From Sphingomonas sp. Leaf357 (lineage in GTDB: Bacteria; Pseudomonadota; Alphaproteobacteria; Sphingomonadales; Sphingomonadaceae): DNA of 64,000 nt. Within the stretch, counting starts at the first letter, position 1. Every line of letters starts with the position of its first letter. The stretch lies in assembly GCF_001423845.1 (NCBI RefSeq), contig NZ_LMPM01000002.1, forward strand, positions 496,001 to 560,000. The letters run 5' to 3'. The translations under genes and the position numbers were made by a program. Shown here piece by piece: positions 18,528 to 34,601 of the stretch. The notes beneath the pieces are model-generated. The model worked only from the letters and a program-made list of their open reading frames with translations. It made no database searches and was not told the origin of the DNA.

Positions 18528-18618
18528 GGAGCGGTGGCCGAGTGGTCGAAGGCGCTCGCCTGGAAAGTGAGTATACGTCAAAAGCGTATCGAGGGTTCGA
18601 ATCCCTCCCGCTCCGCCA
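18528..18618 (+). tRNA. tRNA-Ser(GGA)
   Basis: A 91-base cloverleaf with an encoded CCA end. The acceptor stem pairs GGAGCGG (18528-18534) with CCGCTCC (18608-18614), discriminator G, CCA at 18616-18618. The D arm is GCCGAGTGGTCGAAGGC. The anticodon stem-loop is CTCGC-CTGGAAA-GTGAG, giving anticodon GGA (serine). A long variable arm (TACG...CGTA) is typical of class II tRNAs, and the T arm is GAGGG-TTCGAAT-CCCTC. Its last 14 bases serve as the attachment site of the downstream island. Confidence 0.97.
18605..18618 (+). repeat. att direct repeat, tRNA side
   Basis: CTCCCGCTCCGCCA, identical to 34588-34601. It forms the 3' acceptor end of tRNA-Ser(GGA), so integration leaves the tRNA intact. 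Confidence 0.88.
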
Positions 18619-18885: not shown

Positions 18886-19779
18886 CTATGGCCCGGCCAT
18901 CACTTCACGCAAGACTTGCATCAATGTCATGCACTCAACCCTGTGCCCCAGCCGGCTAGCCCCTTTCAGCAACGGCACGCCGACTTCGTCGTCATATACC
19001 AGAATGATCGGCCGGGTTGCGCTCGTCGCACGATGTCCAGCACCATGCAGTTCTCGGAAAACCTTATTTCGGCCTCTCGTGACCTCTATCGCCCAAGTCT
19101 CCCGCTGCCACTCGAGTATAAGATCAATTTCGCCGGGCAGCCCTTCCCAAACAGTAGCACGAGCACGCACACCTGCAGCGCGAGTAATGCTCGTCACGAC
19201 GAACCCCTCCCAACTTCTCTCACGTAGACGCCAAAACGCTTCGACTCTCGCGGGGCCGACGCCGAGCGGACCGTGAGCATAGGTTCTTTGATCCCACCCA
19301 AGGAGCCGATGAAGCACGCCCGGATCAGTGACATACAGTTTGTGTTTCTGCTGATCAGCATCGCCCGGTTCTGTCCACATCGGCAGACGATACAGAAGGT
19401 TCTGCTGCTCTCCGGACGCGAGCAAGCGGTTGAAAGCACCCTGCTTCATTCGACTCCGTTTTTGCGTTCCTGCAGCCCACTCGCCATGGGATCGGGCCAA
19501 CTCCTCCCAGACACTTATTCCGCTAAAGTCCCAAGAGACATCATCGGGGAAAAAAGGAAGCTCTGGCAACAATCGGTCGCCGACCCACGCCGCTGCGCGA
19601 TTATCGGTAGGAGCGAGTAATGCGGGCAGGTAGCGTCCCCGTCGTCGCAAGTCGTTCAGCGTAAAACGCAGCGAAGTCGCATCGCTCTCGCGCAGCCCAA
19701 CCTCAAGGAGCGGACCAACTGCTTCCGTCAAAAGCAGGTCATGCGCTTCAACAAGCTTTATGTCGGGCAAGATCAGCAT
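18886..19779 (-). CDS. Stand-alone DUF4143-like nuclease-fold protein
   Basis: A 297-residue protein from the ATG at 19779, which overlaps the stop of the ATPase gene (TGATG). Its C-terminal half resembles the DUF4143 domain normally fused to the C-terminus of AAA+ ATPases (COG1373 type): KLYVTDPGVLHRLLGWDQ, then WEGFVVTSITRAAG, then PGEIDLILEWQRETWAIEV. In those proteins this is a PD-(D/E)XK-like fold ending EVK; here the motif is D219...E232-V-T234, so the lysine is lost (a Lys follows at 239). The usual N-terminal ATPase is absent; the neighbouring STAND ATPase may substitute. No signal peptide. Role unknown; probably the last component of the three-gene operon. Confidence 0.65.
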   Translation of the reverse strand: MLILPDIKLVEAHDLLLTEAVGPLLEVGLRESDATSLRFTLNDLRRRGRYLPALLAPTDNRAAAWVGDRLLPELPFFPDDVSWDFSGISVWEELARSHGEWAAGTQKRSRMKQGAFNRLLASGEQQNLLYRLPMWTEPGDADQQKHKLYVTDPGVLHRLLGWDQRTYAHGPLGVGPARVEAFWRLRERSWEGFVVTSITRAAGVRARATVWEGLPGEIDLILEWQRETWAIEVTRGRNKVFRELHGAGHRATSATRPIILVYDDEVGVPLLKGASRLGHRVECMTLMQVLREVMAGP

Positions 19780-22700
19780 CAACGGGAAACGTCGAGAACC
19801 ACGACCCGCACCCGACCAGCCGCTACCGCCCGGTGCGTCTCAAGCGAGGCGCGTAATTCGGCAGCGTTAGTGGGTTTCGGCCCTCCGACCGTTTTTCTAG
19901 GAATGTGAAATCCCGGACCAAACCAGAATACCAAATAGATCCCTTGCCCTTCGGCCTGCCAATGACCGGTGTACAACGCCTCAAGCTGACCGTCGATCGC
20001 GGTCCAAAGTGCGTCGTGCTGCTGCCGTTTAGCCTCCACCGGCAGCCACAGCCGGTCATGGTAGAAGACGATATCGGCGCGCTTACCCTGAGGCATATCG
20101 GCCTCGTCCATCGGATAGATCGATAAAGGCTGAAGATGGCCTCTAAGAAGAGTGACAACAAGGTCGCGGCAATCGTTCTCGGTGCGTGGCTGGTTCCCAC
20201 TCCAGAACCAACGCACTTCGTCCTCTGAGCTCCCGCTCAGTCGGCGACCCAACTCCTCCATCTCATAAACCACAATTGAGCGTAGATCCGCGACAACTGA
20301 AGGGGGACCTTCTTCAAGTACCACCTTAATTTGGTCTAGTGTTGGCGGAATGTAACATTGATCAGCCCGCTTCTGTCGCTGTTCAGCAGCCACAATGCGG
20401 ATAGCTGTCGTGTAACCGTCGACGGGCGCATCCCGCAGTTCAGCTATTGATGCTATCGCGTGCGGCGAGATGTCGTTGCCTAGGCGCTGTATGAACGACC
20501 AGAGGTAGTCGGATGCGTCCCATGGGTTTAGGTCGCCTATCGTCACTGACCCAGGACGCGCCGCGATCGGCCATAGGGTTCGGAACGTCGCGATAATCCA
20601 AGCGAGCTGTTCCACGGATAGTAGAACTGGCGGCCCGTCCCGGTCGTGATAGCTGCTTCCGCCGATACGATCGCGCAAGTGCCAGAGCAACTCGGGATCT
20701 ATCGCGCGGCCCAGCCGCGCTATCGCTGGTTGAAAGTCTACGACAAGCGCAACTGCTTCCCAATTGCGACGCCGCTCATCGGCCATCGCTCGCCCTTGTC
20801 GGTCAGCTACGAGCGCTCGCAGGGCATCTCGACGATCGGACCTGAGAAGTTGGTCGACCATCTCGATTTCCGCTTCCGCCGACATATCTGGGAAGCGGCA
20901 AAGCCACCTCTCAGCTAATTCTACGGCTAGATCGCCATGATCTCCGCGCATGATATCGTAAAGCTGGCTCACGTGTCGGGTGTTATGGCGCAGCTGCGGC
21001 TCGACAAAAATGCGAACCACTCGCTTCCACTGCCGTCGTCGCTTGAGCTCGTCTTCCAACAGAGCGCCGAGATCTTTGAGCGCGCCATCGTTCCCGATCC
21101 CCCCGTTCCAGCACTCGTACAAGCCAGCTGCTAGGCGCTCGCTGCTGACCCCATCGAAGGGTCGATCCCTAGTCCGGACGCGCTCGGCGAGGGCAGCGAC
21201 GACAATGTCGCCGGCCGACCAACGCTTCGATTCCGCGAAGCTGCGGGCAACCTCGGCGGCGCGCGGACGTGGCGGCTGAATTTGTAGGAATGCTTCAAAT
21301 CCCTTGCGCGCCGCCTCGGCGACTTCTTCGCCGAGCCATTCAGCCACCCGCTCATGCGCCGGCACGCCGTTGCCGATGTCAGTGAATCGATTGAGGTATG
21401 CTTGGGCTGGAGGGAGGATCAGGCCGTACTCGCCGGCACTCAGAGCATCGATTTTGGCAAGAAAACTGTTCCGATGCTTGCCGTACTTGTTCTGACGCTC
21501 CGCATCCCGCTCGCGCGTCCGCTCAATCTGTTCACGCTCCCACTCTGGCACGACACGCTTGGCTTTGGCATCGATCCAAGCCAAGGTCTCAAGATCGCCA
21601 ACTGCAAAACGCTTGACCGCCTCGCGCAATGGTTGACCTTCATCGCCCCATTCCCGACCGAGCTCCATAACCTCACGCCAGCGCGGATCAGCTGAGTCCA
21701 TCGTCTCCAACAACGCCACGATTTCAGGTTGTGTTGGGTAAAGGTTAATTAGGTCCCGCTGAAGCGGCCAAGCCCTTTGCCAGACATCTTTACCGCTAGC
21801 CTTGTCGAGTAGGATATAACGCTGGATGGCTTGACGCATTGATGCGCGGGCATCCAACCATTGAGCCAGCTGTTTGCCTAAGTCTCGACGATAAGAATTG
21901 TGTTCTTCGAATGGCTCAATCCACTGCCAGAGCCGCAACGGATCAATCAAAGGGTCATTTTGAAGCCTCTTCAAAATCAACGCATATTGCAGGTCGATCA
22001 AATCATTCGCTTCGTGACCGACATGTTTGGGCAAAAGTTCTTCAGCGTACTCCGCAAAGAGATCGAGTAATGCGTCCAACCGCATGACAGGGACATCGTC
22101 GGCCAAACGGTGGAAACTTTTCAACATGTTGCGATCGGGATTTCCTCCAACGGAAGAAAGCGTTAGCCCATCGCGAGCGAGTACGATTGCAACGATCTGC
22201 TCGTCGGCAAGCGATTCAAGTCCTATGTCGTTGAGCATTTCGTGCGCGAGTCTCAGGGAGTCCTCGCTCCCCTCGCAGCGGAGCTGCTCGAGCAGAACCG
22301 ACCAGTCTTCGCCGCCAGTCGCCAGTAGAACCAACGCAGACGCGTGACGAATGCCGTAGGACTCCCGACCGTCGAGCATCAGCTGCCGAATAAGGGGCCG
22401 GAGGCTCTCTGCGCTCTTTGCGTTTCTTAGCTGCTGCAGGAGAAGCGCGCGCAGTCCAAATTCCGCGTTCGGGTCACGCACGACACGTGCGACCTCCGCC
22501 ATCAAGGGTGCCGCTATCAGCGAGGTAGCGCGGTACTTGCGCCAATCCATGAACCGAGGATTTTCTGCCGCGAGCCGCTCCAGCGCCGCGAAGAGCAGCC
22601 GTGCCTGCTCGACCGATAAGGCCTCGGCATCTCCGTATTCTACGACCCCCATGGGATCCGCCTCGATCACAGAGACCGCGAGTTGCGAATCAAGCGCGAG

Positions 22701-23720
22701 CCAAGCGTGCAATCCGCGAAGAGAGGCTGGCACCAGTCCGTGCGACATAAAAAGTTCAAGTAGTCGACGCCGTTTTATCCGGGTGTCTGCTTGCGCCGCC
22801 AGCCAACGTGCGCCGACAAATTCGCCTACGCGACGGTGGACATAGGTCAGCCCCTCCGACTTGTCGGCGGCAAACAGCTTAGTGTCGGCGACACGACCCA
22901 CATGGCCATGGTCGAACGCTTCAATTTCGGTAAGCGACAGCGCCTTGTCGCTGGGGTCAATCAAGCCGCCCGGCAGATCCAAAATGCGAGAGTTCCCTGA
23001 CAAAATCAGACCAGCGAACGCAGCCCCTGCCGCATCTAAGGCAACCTCGCGCGGAAGCTGTTCTTTGACAGAGTTGCGCTCATTTCGGAGTGTCTCGATT
23101 GCATGTTCAAAAAGAGCAGTCGTCGTCTCGGGCAACGCATCGCTTGGCAGAGCTGCGATCAGTTCAAGAGTTTGTGGGTTTCCTAAAAAGTCCGGCCCGA
23201 AGGCGTCGAAGTGATCGCGCAAGCGCGTCGCCCTATCTGCGTCACCGGTTAGAACAGTCAGCAGCTCTATCTGCTCGTCCCGAGTAAGCGGCTCAAGATG
23301 CACCTCTAGGGGCGTTGTTTCGTACTGTTCGGCGATTGCACCCAACGCGGTCGCTGACCGCCACTCCGCAACCCGGCAGCTAAGGAGAAAAGGTGGGTAA
23401 TTGAGCTGGCCCAGCTTTTGTAGCACGCGGTCGACCGCATCGCCTTGGCCTTGCGACGGTACCTCGTCCAGTGCGTCAATGACGAGACGCGTTGCGTTGC
23501 CAGTTAGCTTCTCTGGCAGCACTCGATTTATCAGCTGCGTGGCTCGACAGAAGCTTGCACTGCCGTCGTGTGCCACGAGGAACTTAAGCAACTCCGTCTT
23601 GCCCATGCCCGGCTCACCCAAGACGACCAACGGCTCACGCCGGACGAAGAGGGAGTCCTGTTCGATCCAGTGACGGCCGTCCTTATCGACGTACCACAAT
23701 CGGCGGTTAAGGTAGGTCAA
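19779..23720 (-). CDS. Giant NACHT/STAND-type ATPase with C-terminal PD-(D/E)XK motif
   Basis: The frame encodes 1313 residues from a TTG at 23720. Walker A is GEPGMGKT (residues 35-42), Walker B IDALDE (81-86), and a sensor-like Arg follows in LLSCRVAEWR: the NACHT/STAND pattern. Residues from about 320 to 1150 are helical and HEAT/TPR-like, a probable recognition scaffold. The C-terminus has a nuclease-like motif, D1216-X12-E1229-A-K1231 (ADIVF...PVEAKRQ). Known bacterial NACHT and Avs proteins carry the effector at the N-terminus, so this order is unusual. An ATG at 23750, overlapping the methyltransferase stop (ATGA), is in the same frame but hits TAG after seven codons. The gene is therefore read from the TTG or is disrupted. 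Probably a phage-sensing or restriction partner; function inferred. Confidence 0.75.
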   Translation of the reverse strand: MTYLNRRLWYVDKDGRHWIEQDSLFVRREPLVVLGEPGMGKTELLKFLVAHDGSASFCRATQLINRVLPEKLTGNATRLVIDALDEVPSQGQGDAVDRVLQKLGQLNYPPFLLSCRVAEWRSATALGAIAEQYETTPLEVHLEPLTRDEQIELLTVLTGDADRATRLRDHFDAFGPDFLGNPQTLELIAALPSDALPETTTALFEHAIETLRNERNSVKEQLPREVALDAAGAAFAGLILSGNSRILDLPGGLIDPSDKALSLTEIEAFDHGHVGRVADTKLFAADKSEGLTYVHRRVGEFVGARWLAAQADTRIKRRRLLELFMSHGLVPASLRGLHAWLALDSQLAVSVIEADPMGVVEYGDAEALSVEQARLLFAALERLAAENPRFMDWRKYRATSLIAAPLMAEVARVVRDPNAEFGLRALLLQQLRNAKSAESLRPLIRQLMLDGRESYGIRHASALVLLATGGEDWSVLLEQLRCEGSEDSLRLAHEMLNDIGLESLADEQIVAIVLARDGLTLSSVGGNPDRNMLKSFHRLADDVPVMRLDALLDLFAEYAEELLPKHVGHEANDLIDLQYALILKRLQNDPLIDPLRLWQWIEPFEEHNSYRRDLGKQLAQWLDARASMRQAIQRYILLDKASGKDVWQRAWPLQRDLINLYPTQPEIVALLETMDSADPRWREVMELGREWGDEGQPLREAVKRFAVGDLETLAWIDAKAKRVVPEWEREQIERTRERDAERQNKYGKHRNSFLAKIDALSAGEYGLILPPAQAYLNRFTDIGNGVPAHERVAEWLGEEVAEAARKGFEAFLQIQPPRPRAAEVARSFAESKRWSAGDIVVAALAERVRTRDRPFDGVSSERLAAGLYECWNGGIGNDGALKDLGALLEDELKRRRQWKRVVRIFVEPQLRHNTRHVSQLYDIMRGDHGDLAVELAERWLCRFPDMSAEAEIEMVDQLLRSDRRDALRALVADRQGRAMADERRRNWEAVALVVDFQPAIARLGRAIDPELLWHLRDRIGGSSYHDRDGPPVLLSVEQLAWIIATFRTLWPIAARPGSVTIGDLNPWDASDYLWSFIQRLGNDISPHAIASIAELRDAPVDGYTTAIRIVAAEQRQKRADQCYIPPTLDQIKVVLEEGPPSVVADLRSIVVYEMEELGRRLSGSSEDEVRWFWSGNQPRTENDCRDLVVTLLRGHLQPLSIYPMDEADMPQGKRADIVFYHDRLWLPVEAKRQQHDALWTAIDGQLEALYTGHWQAEGQGIYLVFWFGPGFHIPRKTVGGPKPTNAAELRASLETHRAVAAGRVRVVVLDVSR

Positions 23721-23746
23721 GCCAATCTATATCCGGCAGCGCTTGG

Positions 23747-26700
23747 TCATGCAGCATAACGTCCATCGTTCAGCCGGCGTGCCATGCCAAGGCCGGCCAA
23801 GGCGTCCAACACTGGGCGCACAGTGGCCGCCCGCTTCCCCTTGAAGCTTCGAGCGATGTCCTGAGCCGCCATCGGCACGACGGCGGTCGCCAGTACCTGC
23901 TGCACAGCACCGACTTGTTCGGTGAGGGTAGCGGGCCACAAAATAATGTTGTCGGGGGCGACAACGGCGGCTTCACCCAGATCGAGTGTCCCGGAGACTG
24001 GCGTCCGGTAGCCGGGATCTTGAAAATCAGTCCGCAAATATCGGATTAGACCAAGCGCCTCCTCAGCCGCTCGCTCCTTGTTCAGCGACACAAGCCGCGT
24101 GAGAATCGTTTGTTCATCCAAATTGCCCGACCGATGCTCATCACCCCAGCCATAGGCTTCTGCCACGCTCTCGTCGATCGCGTGATGGTGCTGGCATATG
24201 AGTGCTACTAGGCCTCGCTGATGGATATCACGTTCGGCGGCAGTAAGCGTTCGACCAGATTGAACCGCATCCACCACGTTATAAAGTTTTGTAAGCGTCA
24301 GGTCTTCATGAGCGTGAAGAACACGTTTGCGCAAATTGTCCAGCGCCTCTGCTTCGGCACGAATCCGATCCTTAATTAAGGCGGCGACCTCTGCAGGTAG
24401 GGGGAAGGGATCAAAGCATCGCGACTTACTGTAACGGGGATCATCACCCACCCCGAGCCGCGCTCCGGCGGCGAGTGCCCATGCCTTATGAATGTGGCTC
24501 GACAGGACGCCAAGCTCAAACGCGTCATCAGAAGCAACCGCTATCAGCATGTGATCTGGCAGAATTTCGACGTTCAAAAACTGAAATACCCGATGCTTGG
24601 CGGTCTCGACGGTGACTATATAACGGTTCAGTCCTCGTAGCGCTCGACGAAGGCCCGGCCTCGGCTTTTGAAAGAGCCACCAAGAGTTAGCGTATTGCAT
24701 CGCATCAGGTGTGCGATCTCGTTTTGCCTCCCGCCCTGGGCGGACCGTCATAGCGACATGCTGATATATCGCGGGCCAGCGCGTTCGAACCTCCGCCTCC
24801 CCGTATCCGAAGAGATCGATTACGTAGGCTCCACGGGACCGAGCCATCAGGTCCCTCCCATTCCGATACGGCTTCACAATCAAACCCATCGCATCCGTGC
24901 CCACTGTCAGGCTTTCGGCGGTGGGATGGTCAAGAATAAACCCGGCACCGTTTAGCGCACACCCATTTGACGCTACACCAAGGTTGCCGCGAAGCGTGCG
25001 CGCATCAACGACTGCCGCGCCGATGGTAAGATCACTCAAGATAGGACCGACGCTCAATCTAAACTCTATATTATCCGGCGCCTCGCTCTCATTGATGACA
25101 GTCATCAATCGACCTTCGCCTGCTCCACTGCATGCGACGGTCATCGATATCCGGACCGACGCTCCATCAGATATGTCGACCCATGGATGATTTGGGATTG
25201 CAAAAGCAATCATAAGAGGAGGCTTTCCGTGCATGTAGATCTCGAGCACCCGCCGATTGAACTTTTGGGGGAGTGAGTTAGTCGTGATGAACCCAAACCG
25301 GCGTGTTCTCCTTTGAGCGGTCTCCGCCGCTGCGCGATCCCACCAGTGCATCACAAAGTCAGCGCTCTCCGGGACTGCTGTCGTGCTAAAGAGGGCCTTC
25401 AAATACCCTTCACCTAATTTTTCTCTCATCGTTTTATCCCCGATGAACGGCGGGTTTCCCACGATGAAATCAGCCTTGGGCCATTTGGCTGCTCTCGGCT
25501 TCGCATATTGGTATACTTCGACCCGGGCCGTCTCGTCGGGTACCATCTTCCCCGTGACTAGGTGCGCCTTCATGGTCTCGCCGTCCCACCGCGACACGGG
25601 AGCGCCGGTCTCGTCGCGTTCGATTTCCCGCTCGTCCCAATCAACGAGGGCGTCCCGGTTCTCAATAGTCCGGATGTCACGCAAGATCGGCTCTGGCGGC
25701 GCACGGTCCTTGCCGTTAACGCGGAAGTGCCACTGGAGATAGCCGATCCAAAGAACCAACTGCGCTATGGCGGCGGCGCGCGGGTTGATTTCGATTCCCA
25801 AAAAGTTTTCAGGCGTAATCGTGTGGCCCGTCAGTTCTGCAAGGTACTGGTCGTCGCCCAGCTCGACTAACAGGTCGAGCACCTCGCCCTCCAGTTCCTT
25901 CATCCGCGCCATCGCGACGTAAAGAAAATTACCTGTGCCACAGGCGGGGTCTAGGACGCGGGTGCTTGCAAGCTTGCCATGGAACGATTCAATTGTCCGC
26001 CGAGCCTCGTCAGGCTTACCTTGATCGATCAGTTCGGTAGCTGCGACGCGCACACCTGCCCAGTCCGCGCGCAATGGCTCCATAATTGTCGGCCCCACCA
26101 ACCTCTCGACGTAAGCGCGCGGCGTGTAGTGCGCGCCTAGCTTGGCCCGCTCCTTGGGGTTCAGGGCGCGTTCGAGGAGCGTACCGAAGATCGCCGGCTC
26201 AACCTCAGTCCAGTCTTTCAGCGATGCCTCGATCAGCACCTCCAGCTCAACTTTCTCTAGCGGCAAGGCAGCGGTGTCCTTGAAGAGATAGCCGTTGAAC
26301 CGCTTGACCGGAATACCAAGGGCCGGCGCGAACACGCCCTTATCCATCGCCTCCCATAATGCGGAGAGCTGATGAGGAAGATGCTCGGGGTGATCAAGCT
26401 GGCCGCGCAGCAGCCTCTTGAAGCTATCCTGTGGCAGCAGCACCCCAGTATCTTCGGCGAACATGGTGAACAAGATGCGCGATAAGAAGCCGCTGACGGC
26501 ATCGGGTGAATGGCCCCGGCCCTCCAAACGACGTGACACAGTGGCGAGGAGGTCGGCGATCTCCCGCGTGACGCGAGCGGCCTGGGTTGAAGGGTCGAGG
26601 CTCGCCGGTTCGGTCCAGATCGCAGCGAGGCGTTTGCGCACGTCCTCGTTGCGCAGGTCCTCAAGCATGATGCGGTAGCGCGACCGGTCGGGGAACTGTG

Positions 26701-27229
26701 CATACGCCTTACCGCTTCCTGTAAAGTCAGCGTAGACCTCGATGCAGTAGCCAATGTCCGCGATCAGCAGGAACGGCGGCCATCCGTGGTCGACAGGAAG
26801 GGCTTTAGCGTACCGCTCGGCCTGCCCCTTAGCCTGCACCATCGCCTTTGCCCAACCCGGCGTGCCGCGACGTGCGGTGCCTCGCTTCATTCGGGCGGTG
26901 GCGGTCTGTCCGAACAGATCCAGATCGTCCTCGCCACGTGCAGCAGCGGCCCGGTCCGCATCGCTGCCCTGCTTTGCCTCAAGGATGAACGCCCCGCGCC
27001 TGTAGGCATCAATACGACCGAAGCTGACTGAGCCGTCGCCGTTGTCCTGAAAAACCCGCCGTTCGAATACGTAGTCATTGTGAGCGTCATCGGCGCGGCT
27101 GCCATGCGGCGGCTCAACGCCGATCAGCCGGCAGAGGGCATTAATAAAGCTCTGCGTGTTCGCCAGCTCCGATCCGCCGGTCTCGCGCCAGTGCTCTATA
27201 AATTGTTCGACATCAGCGTCAGGTTCCAT
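23747..27229 (-). CDS. MmeI-like restriction-methylation enzyme (type IIL)
   Basis: A 1160-residue protein with the whole MmeI-type layout. The N-terminal endonuclease motif is D74-X9-E84-A-K86 (GRIDAYRRGAFILEAKQ), matching the D-X9-EXK spacing of MmeI. A helical linker follows (about 200-360). The methyltransferase core has SAM motif I DPACGTGNF (425-433) and catalytic motif IV NPPF (590-593), typical of adenine-N6 methylation. A target-recognition region spans about 700-960, and a C-terminal helical part ends in a winged-helix-like extension (PMAAQDIARSFKGK). Single-chain enzymes of this type cut and methylate at the same site. It is the second gene on the minus strand of the operon; the ATPase follows after 26 bases. 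Confidence 0.87.
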   Translation of the reverse strand: MEPDADVEQFIEHWRETGGSELANTQSFINALCRLIGVEPPHGSRADDAHNDYVFERRVFQDNGDGSVSFGRIDAYRRGAFILEAKQGSDADRAAAARGEDDLDLFGQTATARMKRGTARRGTPGWAKAMVQAKGQAERYAKALPVDHGWPPFLLIADIGYCIEVYADFTGSGKAYAQFPDRSRYRIMLEDLRNEDVRKRLAAIWTEPASLDPSTQAARVTREIADLLATVSRRLEGRGHSPDAVSGFLSRILFTMFAEDTGVLLPQDSFKRLLRGQLDHPEHLPHQLSALWEAMDKGVFAPALGIPVKRFNGYLFKDTAALPLEKVELEVLIEASLKDWTEVEPAIFGTLLERALNPKERAKLGAHYTPRAYVERLVGPTIMEPLRADWAGVRVAATELIDQGKPDEARRTIESFHGKLASTRVLDPACGTGNFLYVAMARMKELEGEVLDLLVELGDDQYLAELTGHTITPENFLGIEINPRAAAIAQLVLWIGYLQWHFRVNGKDRAPPEPILRDIRTIENRDALVDWDEREIERDETGAPVSRWDGETMKAHLVTGKMVPDETARVEVYQYAKPRAAKWPKADFIVGNPPFIGDKTMREKLGEGYLKALFSTTAVPESADFVMHWWDRAAAETAQRRTRRFGFITTNSLPQKFNRRVLEIYMHGKPPLMIAFAIPNHPWVDISDGASVRISMTVACSGAGEGRLMTVINESEAPDNIEFRLSVGPILSDLTIGAAVVDARTLRGNLGVASNGCALNGAGFILDHPTAESLTVGTDAMGLIVKPYRNGRDLMARSRGAYVIDLFGYGEAEVRTRWPAIYQHVAMTVRPGREAKRDRTPDAMQYANSWWLFQKPRPGLRRALRGLNRYIVTVETAKHRVFQFLNVEILPDHMLIAVASDDAFELGVLSSHIHKAWALAAGARLGVGDDPRYSKSRCFDPFPLPAEVAALIKDRIRAEAEALDNLRKRVLHAHEDLTLTKLYNVVDAVQSGRTLTAAERDIHQRGLVALICQHHHAIDESVAEAYGWGDEHRSGNLDEQTILTRLVSLNKERAAEEALGLIRYLRTDFQDPGYRTPVSGTLDLGEAAVVAPDNIILWPATLTEQVGAVQQVLATAVVPMAAQDIARSFKGKRAATVRPVLDALAGLGMARRLNDGRYAA

Positions 27230-27608: not shown

Positions 27609-28238
27609 ATGTGTAATCGAGCGCGGATGCTGGGCGAGCCAGAGACGATCATCGAGCGGTTCGGCGCCGGCTGGATCGCCGAGAAGCCTCGCGACAATCG
27701 CTTCGATCCCGTCGAGCTACGACCGAAAGGCCGGGCCTACGTCATCCGCCAGCAGGACGGCGCGCACGGTTTGGACGTGATGGCGTGGGACGTTCTCGGC
27801 GGTGCCGCGCCCTGGCCGATGACCAACGTGCGTAACTTGGCCCTGCCGCAGTGGAAGGCATTGGCGTCGAAGCCCGAACAGCGCTGCCTGATCCCGCTCA
27901 CCGAGTTCTGCGAATGGACGCCCGACAAGCACGATCTCGGCGACGGCAAGCCGAAGCTGAAGGGCGAGATGTGGTTTCAGGTGACGGACCAGCCGGTGTT
28001 CGCCGTCGCGGGGTTCTGGCAGCACACCAAGGAAGGTGCCGGCTTCGCGATGGTTACGTGTGATCCGAACTCGCTAGTTGCGCCGATCCATCCGAAGGCA
28101 ATGATCACGATCCTTAAACCTGAGGATCACCAGCGGTGGCTGACTGGCACGGTCGAAGAGGTGATTAAGTTGCAGCAGCCCTACGACGCGGCGGCGATGA
28201 CGGTACGAGGGCCGGCGTTCCCAACGCGTAAATTCTAG
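27609..28238 (+). CDS. SRAP-family protein (YedK/HMCES-like)
   Basis: A 209-residue member of the SOS-response-associated peptidase family, which crosslinks covalently to abasic sites in single-stranded DNA through Cys2. Here Cys2 is present (MCNRARML), as are the conserved Glu in LTEFCEWTPDK and the catalytic His in APIHPKAMITIL. MCNR in place of MCGR is usual in sphingomonads, as is the slightly reduced length. The gene is divergent from the restriction operon; no LexA box was found in the short gap between them. It probably protects single-stranded DNA during island transfer or damage repair, which is inference. Confidence 0.9.
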   Translation: MCNRARMLGEPETIIERFGAGWIAEKPRDNRFDPVELRPKGRAYVIRQQDGAHGLDVMAWDVLGGAAPWPMTNVRNLALPQWKALASKPEQRCLIPLTEFCEWTPDKHDLGDGKPKLKGEMWFQVTDQPVFAVAGFWQHTKEGAGFAMVTCDPNSLVAPIHPKAMITILKPEDHQRWLTGTVEEVIKLQQPYDAAAMTVRGPAFPTRKF

Positions 28239-28496
28239 CTCAGTAACTGAACGCCGGGCTTGTTCATCATGCCTAAGCCGGCATGCTCACAGATGGCGGC
28301 TTATCGTTACCGATGACGGCAATGCCCATCCTCGTAACCATCTTCCGTATCGTTTTGGAACGCCTAGATTTTTTGTAAGGAATGGCTCGCGACAGGCGGT
28401 TTACGATCCGTTAACAGCCCGATCATTCTTCGGAGGGTGGGGGCGCAGGGGCGCAGACGACCGATGTAGAACGTACCCTACAATCGGAGAACGATC

Positions 28497-29099
28497 ATGA
28501 AGACTATGACTAAAATGATGATCGCGGCGACTTTCGCTGTTTCCGGCCTCGCGGCTGGTACCGCTGCTAACGCCGCCATCGTGATCAATATCACACAGGT
28601 TGGAGCCGATGTGCGGGCCGACGCGAGCGGAACCGCAGATACCACGGGCGCAGCGCCGATCGGCCTCCCCATATCCGGCGCCCCTTTTATCAACGGGTCT
28701 CGTGCCGCTGTGAGGGTCGGTAGCGGTGCTTACTACAATTACGCTGTTAGCGGCCCAACTGTGTTCGGAAGTAACTTTCAAGTAACTGCCACCACCGCAT
28801 CGGGCAGCCTTATCGCCGTTAATGGCATGAACCAAACCGTTCAGCTTCTTGCGGCCTATACTTCTAATTCCTTCATCAGCGGCACGGCAACCTTCGCGAA
28901 CCAAACGCTCGCGTCACTCGGACTTACGCTTGGTTCCTATGTCTACCGCCTCCCAAACGACACTTTGACGGTTAATATCGGTCCTGTCGCCGCAGCCGTT
29001 CCCGAAACCGCCACTTGGGCAATGATGATCGCTGGCTTCGGCATGATGGGCGCTGCCATGCGCACCCGTCGTCGTTCGACCAAGGTATCGTTCGCCTAA
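28497..29099 (+). CDS. PEP-CTERM (PEPxxWA variant) surface protein
   Basis: A 200-residue secreted protein. It has a signal peptide (MKTMTKMMIAATFAVSGLAA to ANAA) and a mature region rich in Ser, Thr, Gly and Ala with no known fold. The C-terminal sorting signal reads VPETATWAMMIAGFGMMG, then AAMRTRRR. That is the PEPxxWA-CTERM tripartite signal (motif, hydrophobic segment, basic end), with Thr in place of the second Pro. Such proteins are processed by an exosortase and exported to the envelope or biofilm matrix. No exosortase gene is in this window. GGAGAACGATC precedes the ATG. An intrinsic terminator follows. It is unusual cargo for a genomic island. Confidence 0.88.
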   Translation: MKTMTKMMIAATFAVSGLAAGTAANAAIVINITQVGADVRADASGTADTTGAAPIGLPISGAPFINGSRAAVRVGSGAYYNYAVSGPTVFGSNFQVTATTASGSLIAVNGMNQTVQLLAAYTSNSFISGTATFANQTLASLGLTLGSYVYRLPNDTLTVNIGPVAAAVPETATWAMMIAGFGMMGAAMRTRRRSTKVSFA

Positions 29100-29123
29100 A
29101 CGACTTCTCCCTTGAGAGCGCTA

Positions 29124-29153
29124 AGCCGCTGGCCCTCGGGCTGGCGGCTTTTT
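29124..29153. terminator. Intrinsic terminator after the island PEP-CTERM gene
   Basis: AGCCGC (29124-29129) pairs with GCGGCT (29144-29149) around a loop containing a second GCCC/GGGC pairing. TTTTT follows on the plus strand. It lies 24 bases after the stop of the PEP-CTERM gene and 8 bases before the stop of the convergent minus-strand gene. Confidence 0.8.
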
Positions 29154-29160
29154 GCTGTCG

Positions 29161-29484
29161 CTAATTCGGCTTGCCGATCGGTTCGAGCTTCCAGTCGATC
29201 CCGTCACCTGCGCTCTCCTTGGCGGCAATGCCCTTCATCGCCAGCAGGATCGCCTTGCCAACGTCCTCGCTCAGCAGGCGCATGTCTCGTGGCGTCGGCA
29301 CGTTGCCGCTTTGGACGGCGAGCATACCGATCACGCCACACAGCCCCTCAAGCGCCAGCGGAAAGTCGATCGTGCCGCCTGGTGCATCATCATCCACCGC
29401 TCCAGCGCGAACGACCGCCCATAGGGTTCGCTCGATGATCTTCTCGATATAGGCGGCTTCTTCTGGTGTCCGCGTCTCCGGCAT
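29161..29484 (-). CDS. Conserved-looking hypothetical protein
   Basis: A 107-residue acidic protein beginning MPETRTPEEAAYIEKIIERT, with a predicted mostly helical body (FPLALEGLCGVIGMLAVQSG, LLSEDVGKAILLAMKGIA). AAGGG six bases before the ATG supports translation. No signal peptide, transmembrane segment or recognised domain is seen. It lies downstream of umuC on the same strand, 74 bases away, and may be a distal part of that SOS-controlled operon. Function unknown. Confidence 0.6.
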   Translation of the reverse strand: MPETRTPEEAAYIEKIIERTLWAVVRAGAVDDDAPGGTIDFPLALEGLCGVIGMLAVQSGNVPTPRDMRLLSEDVGKAILLAMKGIAAKESAGDGIDWKLEPIGKPN

Positions 29485-29558
29485 TGTCGGCCCTTTGGCT
29501 GGTGTGGCTTGTCGATATTAGACGCTGGCAGTCGGCCGCATCCACAATTTTGCATAGA

Positions 29559-30827
29559 TCAAGCCCGCACGGTCGGCACCTCGGCGAGGCTGGTGGTCCA
29601 GGCGGGCGAACGCATCTCCGAACGCAGCTTCCATTCGCGGCGAAACCCCTGGGAGGCCGTTACCGCAGTCCAGGTGCCGAATCGCCCATTGATCTCGTCC
29701 AGCGCCGACATCAGCCGATCCCGCTTGCCGGTGTCGTCTTCGAAAAGCGTGCGAGGCCGCATATCAGAGGCAACCAGTTCATCGAGCAAGATGCCGGCCT
29801 TGGTGAAGGCATAGCCATCGCGCCATGCCCGCTCAGCTGCCCGCCTGGCCGCCGCGATCAGCTCCAGGCTGTCGCTCGTCATCGGGTGCAACACGACCAT
29901 GCGTGACCCGCCATATTGCGGCCGCTCGGGCTTGTGCTTGTTGGTGTGGAAGAACGCGGTCAGCCGGGCCGCGACCAAGCCGTGGCTGCGCAGTTTCTCG
30001 CCCGCCCGCATCGCGTATTGGCTAAGCGCACCCATCATGCTGTCGAAGGTCGTTACCGGCGTGCCGAACGATCTGGTGACCGCCATGCCCTTGCGCTGCG
30101 GTTCGACGCTCTCGACGGCATTGGATGGCACCCCGCGCAGCTCGGCCACCAGCCGCTCCAGCACGACAGTGCCGACCGCGCGCGCCTGCTTCATCGGCAT
30201 GTCGCGAAGCCCGGCCGCCGTATCGATGCCCAAGCCGATCAGTTTGGCGGCGGTGGCACGGCCGACGCCCCACACGTCCCCGACCGGGAACACGCGCATC
30301 ACATCGTGCCGGGTACCCTCATCGCGAAGATCGGCCACCCCGTCGAAGCGCGGCTCCTTCTTCGCGGCGGCGTTCGCCAGCTTCGCCAGCGTCTTCGTGC
30401 CGGCGATGCCAACGCATGTGGGTATGGTGGTCCATAGCCGCACCTGCGCCCGCATGGCATGCGCGTGTGCGACCAGATCGCGATCCTCGAACCCGGCCAG
30501 GTCGAGGAAGGTTTCGTCGATCGAGTAGATCTCGGTATCGCGGGCGAACGCATCGCAGGCGGCGATCACGCGCCGCTGCATGTCGCCGTACAGCGTGTAA
30601 TTCGAGGATAGTACGCGGATGCCATGATCGCGCACCTTGTCGCGCAGATGGTGGATCGGATCGCCCATCTTGATGCCGAGCGCCTTAGCCTCGGCCGAAC
30701 GTGCGATGGCGCATCCATCATTGTTGGACAGCACGATCACCGGCACGCCGACGAGCTTGGCGTCGAAGGCGCGTTCGCACGAAACGTAGTAATTGTTGCA
30801 GTCGATCAGCGCGATCGGCGTGGTCAT
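29559..30827 (-). CDS. umuC: Y-family translesion DNA polymerase UmuC
   Basis: UmuC is the catalytic subunit of DNA polymerase V, inserting bases opposite lesions. The 422-residue protein begins [20 protein letters not shown] with the first catalytic Asp, contains [12 protein letters not shown], and has the second catalytic site in [12 protein letters not shown]. Helix-hairpin-helix and little-finger regions follow ([29 protein letters not shown]). Length fits UmuC, not the shorter DinB. The ATG overlaps the umuD stop (ATGA). The operon is preceded by a LexA box at 31568-31582. It is island-borne, like the umuDC copies found on many plasmids and integrative elements. Confidence 0.92.
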
Positions 30828-31288
30828 GGCAGCTTGCGCGCGACGCCGACCACCACGCCCCATATCTCGACATGCTCATCGACGAGGATCTGATCGAACC
30901 CTTCCGCTTCGGGCACCAGCCAATGGCGACCATCCACATAGCGCAGCCGCTTTAGCGTGCGATCACCATGAACCAGGGCAACCACCACCGCGCCCGATCG
31001 CGGCGTTTTCGCGCGGTTGACGACGATCAGATCGCCTTCGTTGATACCGACGCCGGCCATGGACTGCCCATCAACCCGCATGATGTAGCTGGCGGCCGGA
31101 TGCTCGACGAGCCAGGCCCCGAGGTCGATCGGCTCCTGCATGTCGTCCTGTGCCGGGGACGGGAAGCCGGCGGGGGTGTGGCACAGGAAGAACGGCACCT
31201 CGCGCGGCAACAGATCGAACGGTACATCGTGCAGCTTCAGGTCGTTCGCTGGGCGGACCAGCGCCAAGTATGCGGGTCTCGGATCCAC
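30824..31288 (-). CDS. umuD: UmuD, self-cleaving polymerase V subunit (S24 family)
   Basis: A 154-residue protein aligned with UmuD. The self-cleavage site is Ala40-Gly41 in [14 protein letters not shown] (E. coli: CGFPSPAADYV). The catalytic Ser is S76 in [11 protein letters not shown] and the Lys is K113 in [10 protein letters not shown]. RecA-stimulated cleavage produces UmuD-prime, which activates UmuC. The N-terminus is about 16 residues longer than in E. coli. The start is a GTG immediately after the stop of the preceding small gene, with no intergenic base, so the genes are translated as a coupled unit. Confidence 0.92.
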
Positions 31289-33274: not shown

Positions 33275-34435
33275 TCACGGCGTCGGACAAATGGTAGCAG
33301 CCCAAACCCCCATCATCTCGCGACGCTTCTCCAGAAAGATCGTGCGGCGATATGCAGCCACGACCTTGTCCGGGACCGCATGCGCTAGAGCCATCTCAGC
33401 GACCCCATCGGGATACGTCGTCTCTTCAGCGACCCAGTCCCGAAAGCTCGACCGAAAACCATGCACGGTCCACTTACCGCCAATCGCGGTGCGAAGAACT
33501 TTAGTCAGGGTCATGTCGCTGAGAGGTCTGTCAGACATGCCCGGAAAGATCGGCTCGCCCAGCCGACCCTTACGAAGACCTGCCGCCAACTCAAGAACTG
33601 TTAGCGCAGCCGGTGACAGCGGCACGACATGCTGCCTGCCCGCCTTCATTCGGCTCCCGGGGATAGTCCAAAGCTCATTGGCAAGGTCAATTTCGGCCCA
33701 TGTGGCCCCCCGCACCTCCCCCGATCGCGCCGCCGTCAGGATCAAGAAGCGCAGCGCTAGGCGGCCAGCGGTATCACGGTCGCCGAGCTTGGTCATGAGA
33801 TCGGCAATTTGACTAAACGGCAAGGAGGCGAAATGTGAAGCTTGGGTAGTCTGCTTTGGCAGGCCAATTCTGATTGACCGCATTGGAGCCTCGCTGGGCC
33901 GGTGCCCCTTGGCATGCCCCCAGTCTAGCACGATGCCCACCCTCTGGAGCACCCGCCGGGCAGTTTCAGGTTTGCTCTGCCAGATTGGCATCAACAGATC
34001 ACGGACGTGACCAGCGGTGACTTTATCAATAGGCATCGAGCCGATCGCGGGAAAGGCGTAGCTCTTCATCGAAGATAGCCACTGGGCCTCATGCTTGGGG
34101 TTCTTCCAGTCTGACTTTCTCTCGTCATGCACAGCCACGGCGGCCCCCTCAAAGCTTGGCAGGGCGGCCAGGATTCTCCGTGAGACGCGCTTAGCCTCCA
34201 CCGGGTCTTCACCAGCCCGAATTTGCTTTCGAGTCTCCACGGCCCTCTCACGGGCGCCTGTGAGGGTGACGTGATCCGCAGATCCTAACCCTATGTCCCT
34301 GCGCTTGCCGTTCGCTTGAACGCGTAGCTGCCACGATCGCGACCCGCTCTCCTTGACCACGAGCATCAACCCCTGACCATCCACATATCTACCCGGACCG
34401 CAGGTCTTCACTTTCAACGCTGTCAGCTTACCCAT
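33275..34435 (-). CDS. Tyrosine recombinase (DUF4102-type island integrase)
   Basis: A 386-residue integrase. The N-terminus (MGKLTALKVKTCGPGRYVDG, GLMLVVKESGSRSWQLRV) is the DUF4102 arm-binding domain of P4-type integrases. The catalytic domain shows the first Arg in LTAARSGEVRGATW, the HxxR box in VHGFRSSFRDWVAEE, the third His in ALAHAVPDKV and the nucleophilic Tyr in VAAYRRTIFLEKR. Such enzymes integrate at tRNA 3' ends. The frame is open 12 codons further upstream, but GGAG eight bases before the ATG at 34435 fixes the start. The attachment repeat lies 153 bases upstream. Confidence 0.93.
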   Translation of the reverse strand: MGKLTALKVKTCGPGRYVDGQGLMLVVKESGSRSWQLRVQANGKRRDIGLGSADHVTLTGARERAVETRKQIRAGEDPVEAKRVSRRILAALPSFEGAAVAVHDERKSDWKNPKHEAQWLSSMKSYAFPAIGSMPIDKVTAGHVRDLLMPIWQSKPETARRVLQRVGIVLDWGHAKGHRPSEAPMRSIRIGLPKQTTQASHFASLPFSQIADLMTKLGDRDTAGRLALRFLILTAARSGEVRGATWAEIDLANELWTIPGSRMKAGRQHVVPLSPAALTVLELAAGLRKGRLGEPIFPGMSDRPLSDMTLTKVLRTAIGGKWTVHGFRSSFRDWVAEETTYPDGVAEMALAHAVPDKVVAAYRRTIFLEKRREMMGVWAATICPTP

Positions 34436-34587
34436 GCCGTTCGCTCCGTACCCACACTGGACCCCACACATCTACGCGGTTCTGAACGAACCACAACGGT
34501 CACATGCGAACGTTACATGGTGATTTAGGCCGATTTTCTGGGCGACTCTGAACCTCTACGATTCAGCTGGGTCAAAGGTTGGGAGGA

Positions 34588-34601
34588 CTCCCGCTCCGCC
34601 A
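34588..34601 (+). repeat. att direct repeat, integrase side
   Basis: CTCCCGCTCCGCCA, identical to the last 14 bases of tRNA-Ser(GGA) at 18605-18618. The rest of the tRNA is not duplicated here. It marks the right end of the island. Confidence 0.88.

Follow-up and report, generated by a model that had tools for sequence, protein, structure and literature searches.

We analysed a 64,000-nucleotide stretch of Sphingomonas sp. Leaf357 (contig NZ_LMPM01000002.1, positions 496,001 to 560,000; hereafter the window), in which three neighbouring genes encode an MmeI-like restriction-modification (RM) enzyme, the NACHT ATPase EruA and a stand-alone DUF4143 protein. An original prediction, made from the sequence alone, had described them as one minus-strand operon on an integrative island, each product carrying a PD-(D/E)XK-like motif, and had proposed that the ATPase and the DUF4143 protein act as a second layer behind restriction. 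Open reading frame (ORF) analysis confirmed the three minus-strand genes (Table 1), with 26 bp between the MmeI-like ORF and that of EruA and an overlap at TGATG between EruA and the DUF4143 gene. The three genes are real, but they are no conserved three-gene system. Instead, DUF4143 genes recur as partners of EruA, and the partner in the window lacks the ATPase part found in most of the others.

Table 1. Features of the locus, in window coordinates.
Feature	Position	Strand	Evidence
MmeI-like Type IIG/IIL restriction-methylation enzyme, 1160 aa	23747..27229	-	Pfam, PADLOC, motif alignment
EruA, 1313 aa	19779..23720	-	NF058535, invariant residues, C-terminal model
EruA, predicted C-terminal PD-(D/E)XK nuclease residues E1181, D1216, E1229, K1231, Q1245			
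Stand-alone DUF4143 protein, 298 aa (TTG start) or 297 aa (following ATG, in TGATG)	18886..19782	-	Pfam, alignments A1 and A4
tRNA-Ser(GGA), attachment site; last 14 bases (18605-18618) = left repeat	18528..18618	+	ARAGORN
Right attachment repeat CTCCCGCTCCGCCA	34588..34601	+	exact 14-bp copy of tRNA-Ser 3' end
Tyrosine integrase of the island, 398 aa, adjoins right repeat	33275..34471	-	Pfam Arm-DNA-bind_3, Phage_int_M, Phage_integrase

EruA, a probable sensor-nuclease

The 1313-aa ATPase matched the NCBIfam model NF058535, 'NACHT domain-containing antiphage protein EruA', with 1289.1 bits (cut-off 1000) over residues 6-1312 and profile positions 1-1318 of 1318, and its sequence identifies it as a full-length member of this family. 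The ATPase thus belongs to an already named antiphage family; for the set of three genes, to which the original prediction likewise gave no name, we found none. The Pfam NACHT model gave 20.5 bits, short of its cut-off (26.7). The protein displays the hallmarks of a NACHT STAND NTPase, a Walker A motif (GEPGMGKT, residues 35-42) and a Walker B motif (LVIDALDE) of the type D-x-x-D-E with D82, D85 and E86. These three residues were invariant in all 26 aligned EruA sequences, window included, and Walker A was present in 25, the 26th (L035) being cut by a contig end.

The NTPase occupies the extreme N-terminus of EruA and is followed by a long middle region and, in approximately the last 140 residues, by the nuclease region. 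Here the predicted motif D1216-X12-E1229-A-K1231 was intact in 26/26 sequences, window included, and the region was modelled as a PD-(D/E)XK fold (pLDDT 90.4) with nuclease-like structure matches. Having the aspartate, the E-x-K and the fold, the C-terminus is a predicted PD-(D/E)XK nuclease.

A related NACHT family is HyoA (NF058534, 'NACHT domain-containing antiphage protein HyoA'), which two of three scanned EruA relatives matched with 116 and 156 bits, scores that fall well short of the 1200-bit cut-off; the window EruA gave no match to it at E values up to 1. Proteins from open frames of 1441-1519 aa, encoded in L009-L012, L046-L052 and L077-L081, scored about 110-190 bits on the EruA model. 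This set is probably HyoA.

Genes adjoining EruA and reduction of the DUF4143 partner

The surroundings of EruA were compared in 34 genomes whose EruA match is full or near-full: 7 over the cut-off among 199 family genomes, 3 more long matches among 385 class genomes, 18 more among 398 phylum genomes and 6 more among 295 genus genomes, these samples having a few genomes in common. Ten of the first 28 lie below the NF058535 cut-off (503-997 bits), and of the last six G944 alone was scored on that model (1249 bits). EruA carries an in-frame stop in G172 and G925, both among the first 28, and the proteins of G1087 and G1112 are identical, leaving 33 distinct sequences. Excluded were pieces at contig edges (G401, G520, G805, G738, G629, G651), a partial match of 281 bits in G809, and matches that were HyoA-like (about 110-190 bits) or weaker still. 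DUF4143 was searched genome-wide with Pfam in 28 of the 34 and, for the remaining six, with an A1-derived profile over the 17-20 kb surrounding EruA; MmeI was searched with Pfam MmeI_Mtase over the 28 whole genomes and with phmmer in stretches around EruA. Flanks are short at contig ends in G691, G678 and G709, the upstream side is absent in G090 and the downstream side almost absent in G043.

A DUF4143 gene directly adjoins EruA in 9/34 genomes. It lies downstream in the window, G031, G189, G090, G320 and G944, and upstream in G262, G616, G855 and again G189, which has one on both sides. In the 28 genomes searched throughout, 15 genes passed the PF13635 cut-off and nine of these adjoin EruA, which we infer to be far above the chance level in genomes with thousands of genes. 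DUF4143 also lies downstream of EruA at one of six plasmid loci, that of Paracoccus sediminicola (NZ_CP115770). Judged from mechanically chosen starts, the overlap is 4 bases in five of the six downstream pairs, and the genes of the sixth are 11 bp apart. DUF4143 is therefore a recurrent partner of EruA.

A tree was built from 38 EruA proteins, those of six plasmid records, of the six genus genomes and, with the interrupted copies omitted, of 26 of the first 28 genomes. The DUF4143 label required 4 changes on this tree compared to a shuffled mean of 9.0 (0/500 as low), and downstream and upstream partners fell in separate parts. The window EruA belongs to a clade of eight proteins (support 100), five of which (L087, L088, L141, L142, L184) have no DUF4143 neighbour. 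An earlier tree of 32 rows agreed; both trees were made by a quick method and contain one long row (L102).

DUF4143 following AAA_14 is a common arrangement, and it was also observed among the partners of EruA: eight scanned partners from seven genomes combine an AAA_14 ATPase with DUF4143. In these eight, all outside the clade of the window, the P-loop lysine and the E-x-K are intact. All three partners within the clade are changed. In the Paracoccus plasmid and G944 partners the P-loop lysine is replaced by arginine while the E-x-K is kept, and Pfam detects no AAA_14. The window protein retains the DUF4143 domain (Pfam, 40.8 bits, cut-off 28.1, E 2.4e-10), but it had no AAA_14 match at E values up to 1 and no P-loop in alignment A1. 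The P-loop and Walker B region are gone, and only a remnant of the last part of the ATPase seems to align (A1, A4). No model of the NCBIfam release searched matched this protein. The third motif of the original prediction, D219...E232VT234, did not hold up as a PD-(D/E)XK site: the window protein reads E-V-T where the 8 others in A1 read E-I-K or E-V-K, and the motif is therefore not an intact site. Four residues invariant in A1 (G193, E218, D220, E233) are still present. The open frame overlaps the EruA stop, which suggests that the gene is still expressed. From its sequence, the window protein is probably a reduced, non-catalytic accessory of EruA.

A gene of the MmeI type lies near EruA in one of the 34 genomes, which is the window itself; such rarity beside the methyltransferase is an outcome that the original prediction had named in advance as speaking against it. 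Several other EruA genes sit amid unrelated siderophore, chemotaxis, transport or metabolism genes, and two adjoin type I RM genes, with hsdS overlapping by 4 bases in G691 (L098:1736-7236) and hsdM downstream in G709 (L096:12003-19230), where a BRO-N gene also follows EruA. Further neighbours were noted at one or two loci each. A RES-domain gene with a HEPN_RES-type N-terminus occurs near EruA in G626 and G944 (L087:12602-14044, L183:6461-7879), in differing position and orientation. In G189 (L034:5967-14141), the AAA_14-DUF4143 genes on both sides of EruA are followed by a HEPN_LA2681 gene, all overlaps being 4 bases. In G1021 (L188:7915-15785), EruA is followed after 65 bp by a gene for a 1221-aa protein whose STAND/NACHT matches are weak and below cut-off. 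The EruA-DUF4143 pair of G320 has a Cas1-domain gene 174 bp upstream (L083:12213-13358), and two Burkholderia records (L141:4208-5674, L142:4230-5696) have a Schlafen AlbA_2/HATPase_c_4 gene (488 aa) about 140 bp upstream of EruA.

The MmeI-like enzyme and the host island

Pfam detected MmeI_N, MmeI_hel, MmeI_Mtase and MmeI_TRD in that order in the 1160-aa protein, which thus has the MmeI/Type IIG-IIL layout of a PD-(D/E)XK domain, helical spacer, methyltransferase and target recognition domain on one chain. The PADLOC model REase_MTase_IIG matched with 1450 bits. As predicted, the protein carries the motif D74-X9-E84-A-K86, which was intact in 14/14 aligned MmeI sequences, window included, and for methylation it has DPACGTGNF (starting at 427) and GNPPF (starting at 591), which are conserved across the 14 with small changes. 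The models PglX, DrmMI, DrmD and mad2 matched parts of the protein far below the IIG model, and its two neighbours matched no BREX, DISARM or MADS model except mad8 (E 0.047); in this PADLOC scan of the three operon proteins, companion genes of BREX, DISARM or MADS were not among them.

Homologues of the enzyme (E up to 1e-50) occurred in 35 of the 199 family genomes, its own included, the closest being 74% identical over the full length. Among the other 34, the neighbourhoods of 13 homologues were inspected, and none of the 13 adjoins EruA. In three, another gene overlaps downstream, two of these genes having a DUF5655 domain. At L152:7975-8895 and L154:12100-13011, a DUF5655 gene with a below-cut-off NucS match lies 3' of the MmeI homologue with a 4-base overlap. 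The MmeI-like gene is an ordinary mobile RM enzyme.

The predicted integrative island was confirmed. The 14-bp 3' end of the tRNA-Ser gene occurs in two exact copies in the window (0 in 100 shuffles), a tyrosine integrase adjoins the right one, and GC content is lower inside the island (54-65%) than in the flanks, where it is 63-72% up to a distance of 44 kb. The three genes thus sit on a 16-kb integrative tRNA-Ser island. Of 60 other genus genomes, the 11 with the best match conserve the left flank and the tRNA. To the right of the tRNA these 11 carry DNA unlike both the island and the right flank (1.5 kb compared), indicating that the tRNA is a variable site; no clean empty site of the island was found among them. 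At window 27609-31288, Pfam further identified genes of the island for an SRAP and a PEP-CTERM protein; two more genes there overlap each other, one for a UmuD-like S24 peptidase and one for a UmuC-like Y-family polymerase with DUF4113.

Interpretation and relation to known systems

We think it probable that the locus holds two separate defences placed head to tail, an independent MmeI restriction enzyme and an EruA sensor-nuclease with a reduced DUF4143 accessory. The MmeI-like enzyme would methylate its own site and cut unmethylated DNA alone. Upon an infection signal, EruA, as a STAND/NACHT sensor, would bind ATP and assemble via its N-terminal NACHT domain, and assembly would switch on the C-terminal nuclease, which might then degrade phage DNA, host DNA or both. 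The DUF4143 gene would be an EruA accessory descended from AAA_14-DUF4143 partners that turned pseudo-ATPase in the EruA clade of the window, where the window copy has probably lost any nuclease activity too. Its product would most likely be a non-catalytic regulator, a DNA- or partner-binding subunit of EruA, or a protein on its way to loss. Going further, EruA could be regarded as an inverted bacterial NLR (nucleotide-binding, leucine-rich repeat protein), with the NTPase first and the nuclease last, whose nuclease is gated or aimed in one clade by an AAA_14-DUF4143 protein converted stepwise to a non-catalytic subunit, by a change of the P-loop lysine to arginine and then by disappearance of the ATPase core together with the E-x-K lysine. 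We put this forward tentatively and rate it as doubtful.

In a reading that takes up the original prediction, all three genes would act together, methylation by the MmeI enzyme marking self and EruA with DUF4143 attacking unmethylated or restriction-evading DNA. Shared strand, close spacing and a common island fit this idea, as does the position of EruA next to hsdS or upstream of hsdM in two other genomes. However, methylation as a self signal, or a second layer tied to this enzyme, rests on adjacency at a single locus; neither the 34 EruA genomes nor the 13 MmeI homologues yielded a second such neighbourhood, and several EruA genes lie amid unrelated genes. We therefore regard one integrated system as very improbable. 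A defence role stays plausible for all three genes, and of the proposed second layer the pairing of ATPase and DUF4143 recurs in chromosomes and on a plasmid; the tie to this MmeI enzyme and to methylation is not supported.

Alternatively, EruA may defend alone, the DUF4143 gene of the window being a decaying passenger without a present role. The 25 EruA genomes without an adjoining DUF4143 gene, the five members of the clade that likewise lack one, and the loss of the ATPase core and E-x-K lysine in the window copy would agree with this. Decay is harder to reconcile with a frame open over 298 codons that still overlaps the EruA stop, with the four retained residues that are invariant in A1, and with the recurrence of the pairing, upstream or downstream of EruA, in distant genomes; we consider it unlikely, albeit the most serious of the alternatives to two separate defences. 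The tight coupling of the downstream pairs would also suit an antitoxin-like brake that keeps the EruA nuclease off until infection. Yet the same 25 genomes indicate that EruA can live without such a brake, and in three genomes the sole DUF4143 partner is upstream. This role appears improbable, though somewhat less so than a methylation-linked system.

EruA already bears a name, MmeI enzymes are well known, and the restriction enzyme that lies beside EruA in the window is an ordinary one. The EruA-DUF4143 pairing and its ATPase-less form were not found described in the open-licence literature, outside of which the paper naming EruA may lie. If the reading of two separate defences is true, a bacterial NACHT sensor can bear a DNA-cutting effector at the end opposite to that in the bNACHT proteins described so far, and recruitment of a DUF4143 ATPase can be followed by its reduction to a pseudoenzyme partner. 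The partner series, from an intact P-loop over lysine-to-arginine to no ATPase core, is natural material for testing the role of the partner.

The window enzyme shares the domain order of the MmeI/Type IIL RM enzymes and the spacing D-X9-E-X-K of the MmeI catalytic residues D70, E80 and K82 (PMC4833311), but is longer (1160 aa compared to about 919). The window ATPase matches the EruA family NF058535 over the full profile; the locus differs by its AAA-less DUF4143 partner and the MmeI gene upstream. With the AAA_14-DUF4143 ATPases (PADLOC candidate PDC-S01), which four scanned partners of other EruA genes match with up to 546 bits, the window partner (26.6 bits) has the DUF4143 domain in common, but it lacks AAA_14 and the E-x-K lysine. 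Finally, bNACHT25 and bNACHT32 combine a NACHT NTPase with a PD-(D/E)XK nuclease, as EruA does. In those proteins, however, the nuclease stands at the N-terminus and the sensor at the C-terminus (PMC12169576). The corresponding order of AVAST and bNACHT proteins, with the effector N-terminal to the NTPase, was not found in EruA, where the P-loop already lies at residues 35-42 and the predicted nuclease is C-terminal, so that the published bNACHT order is reversed.
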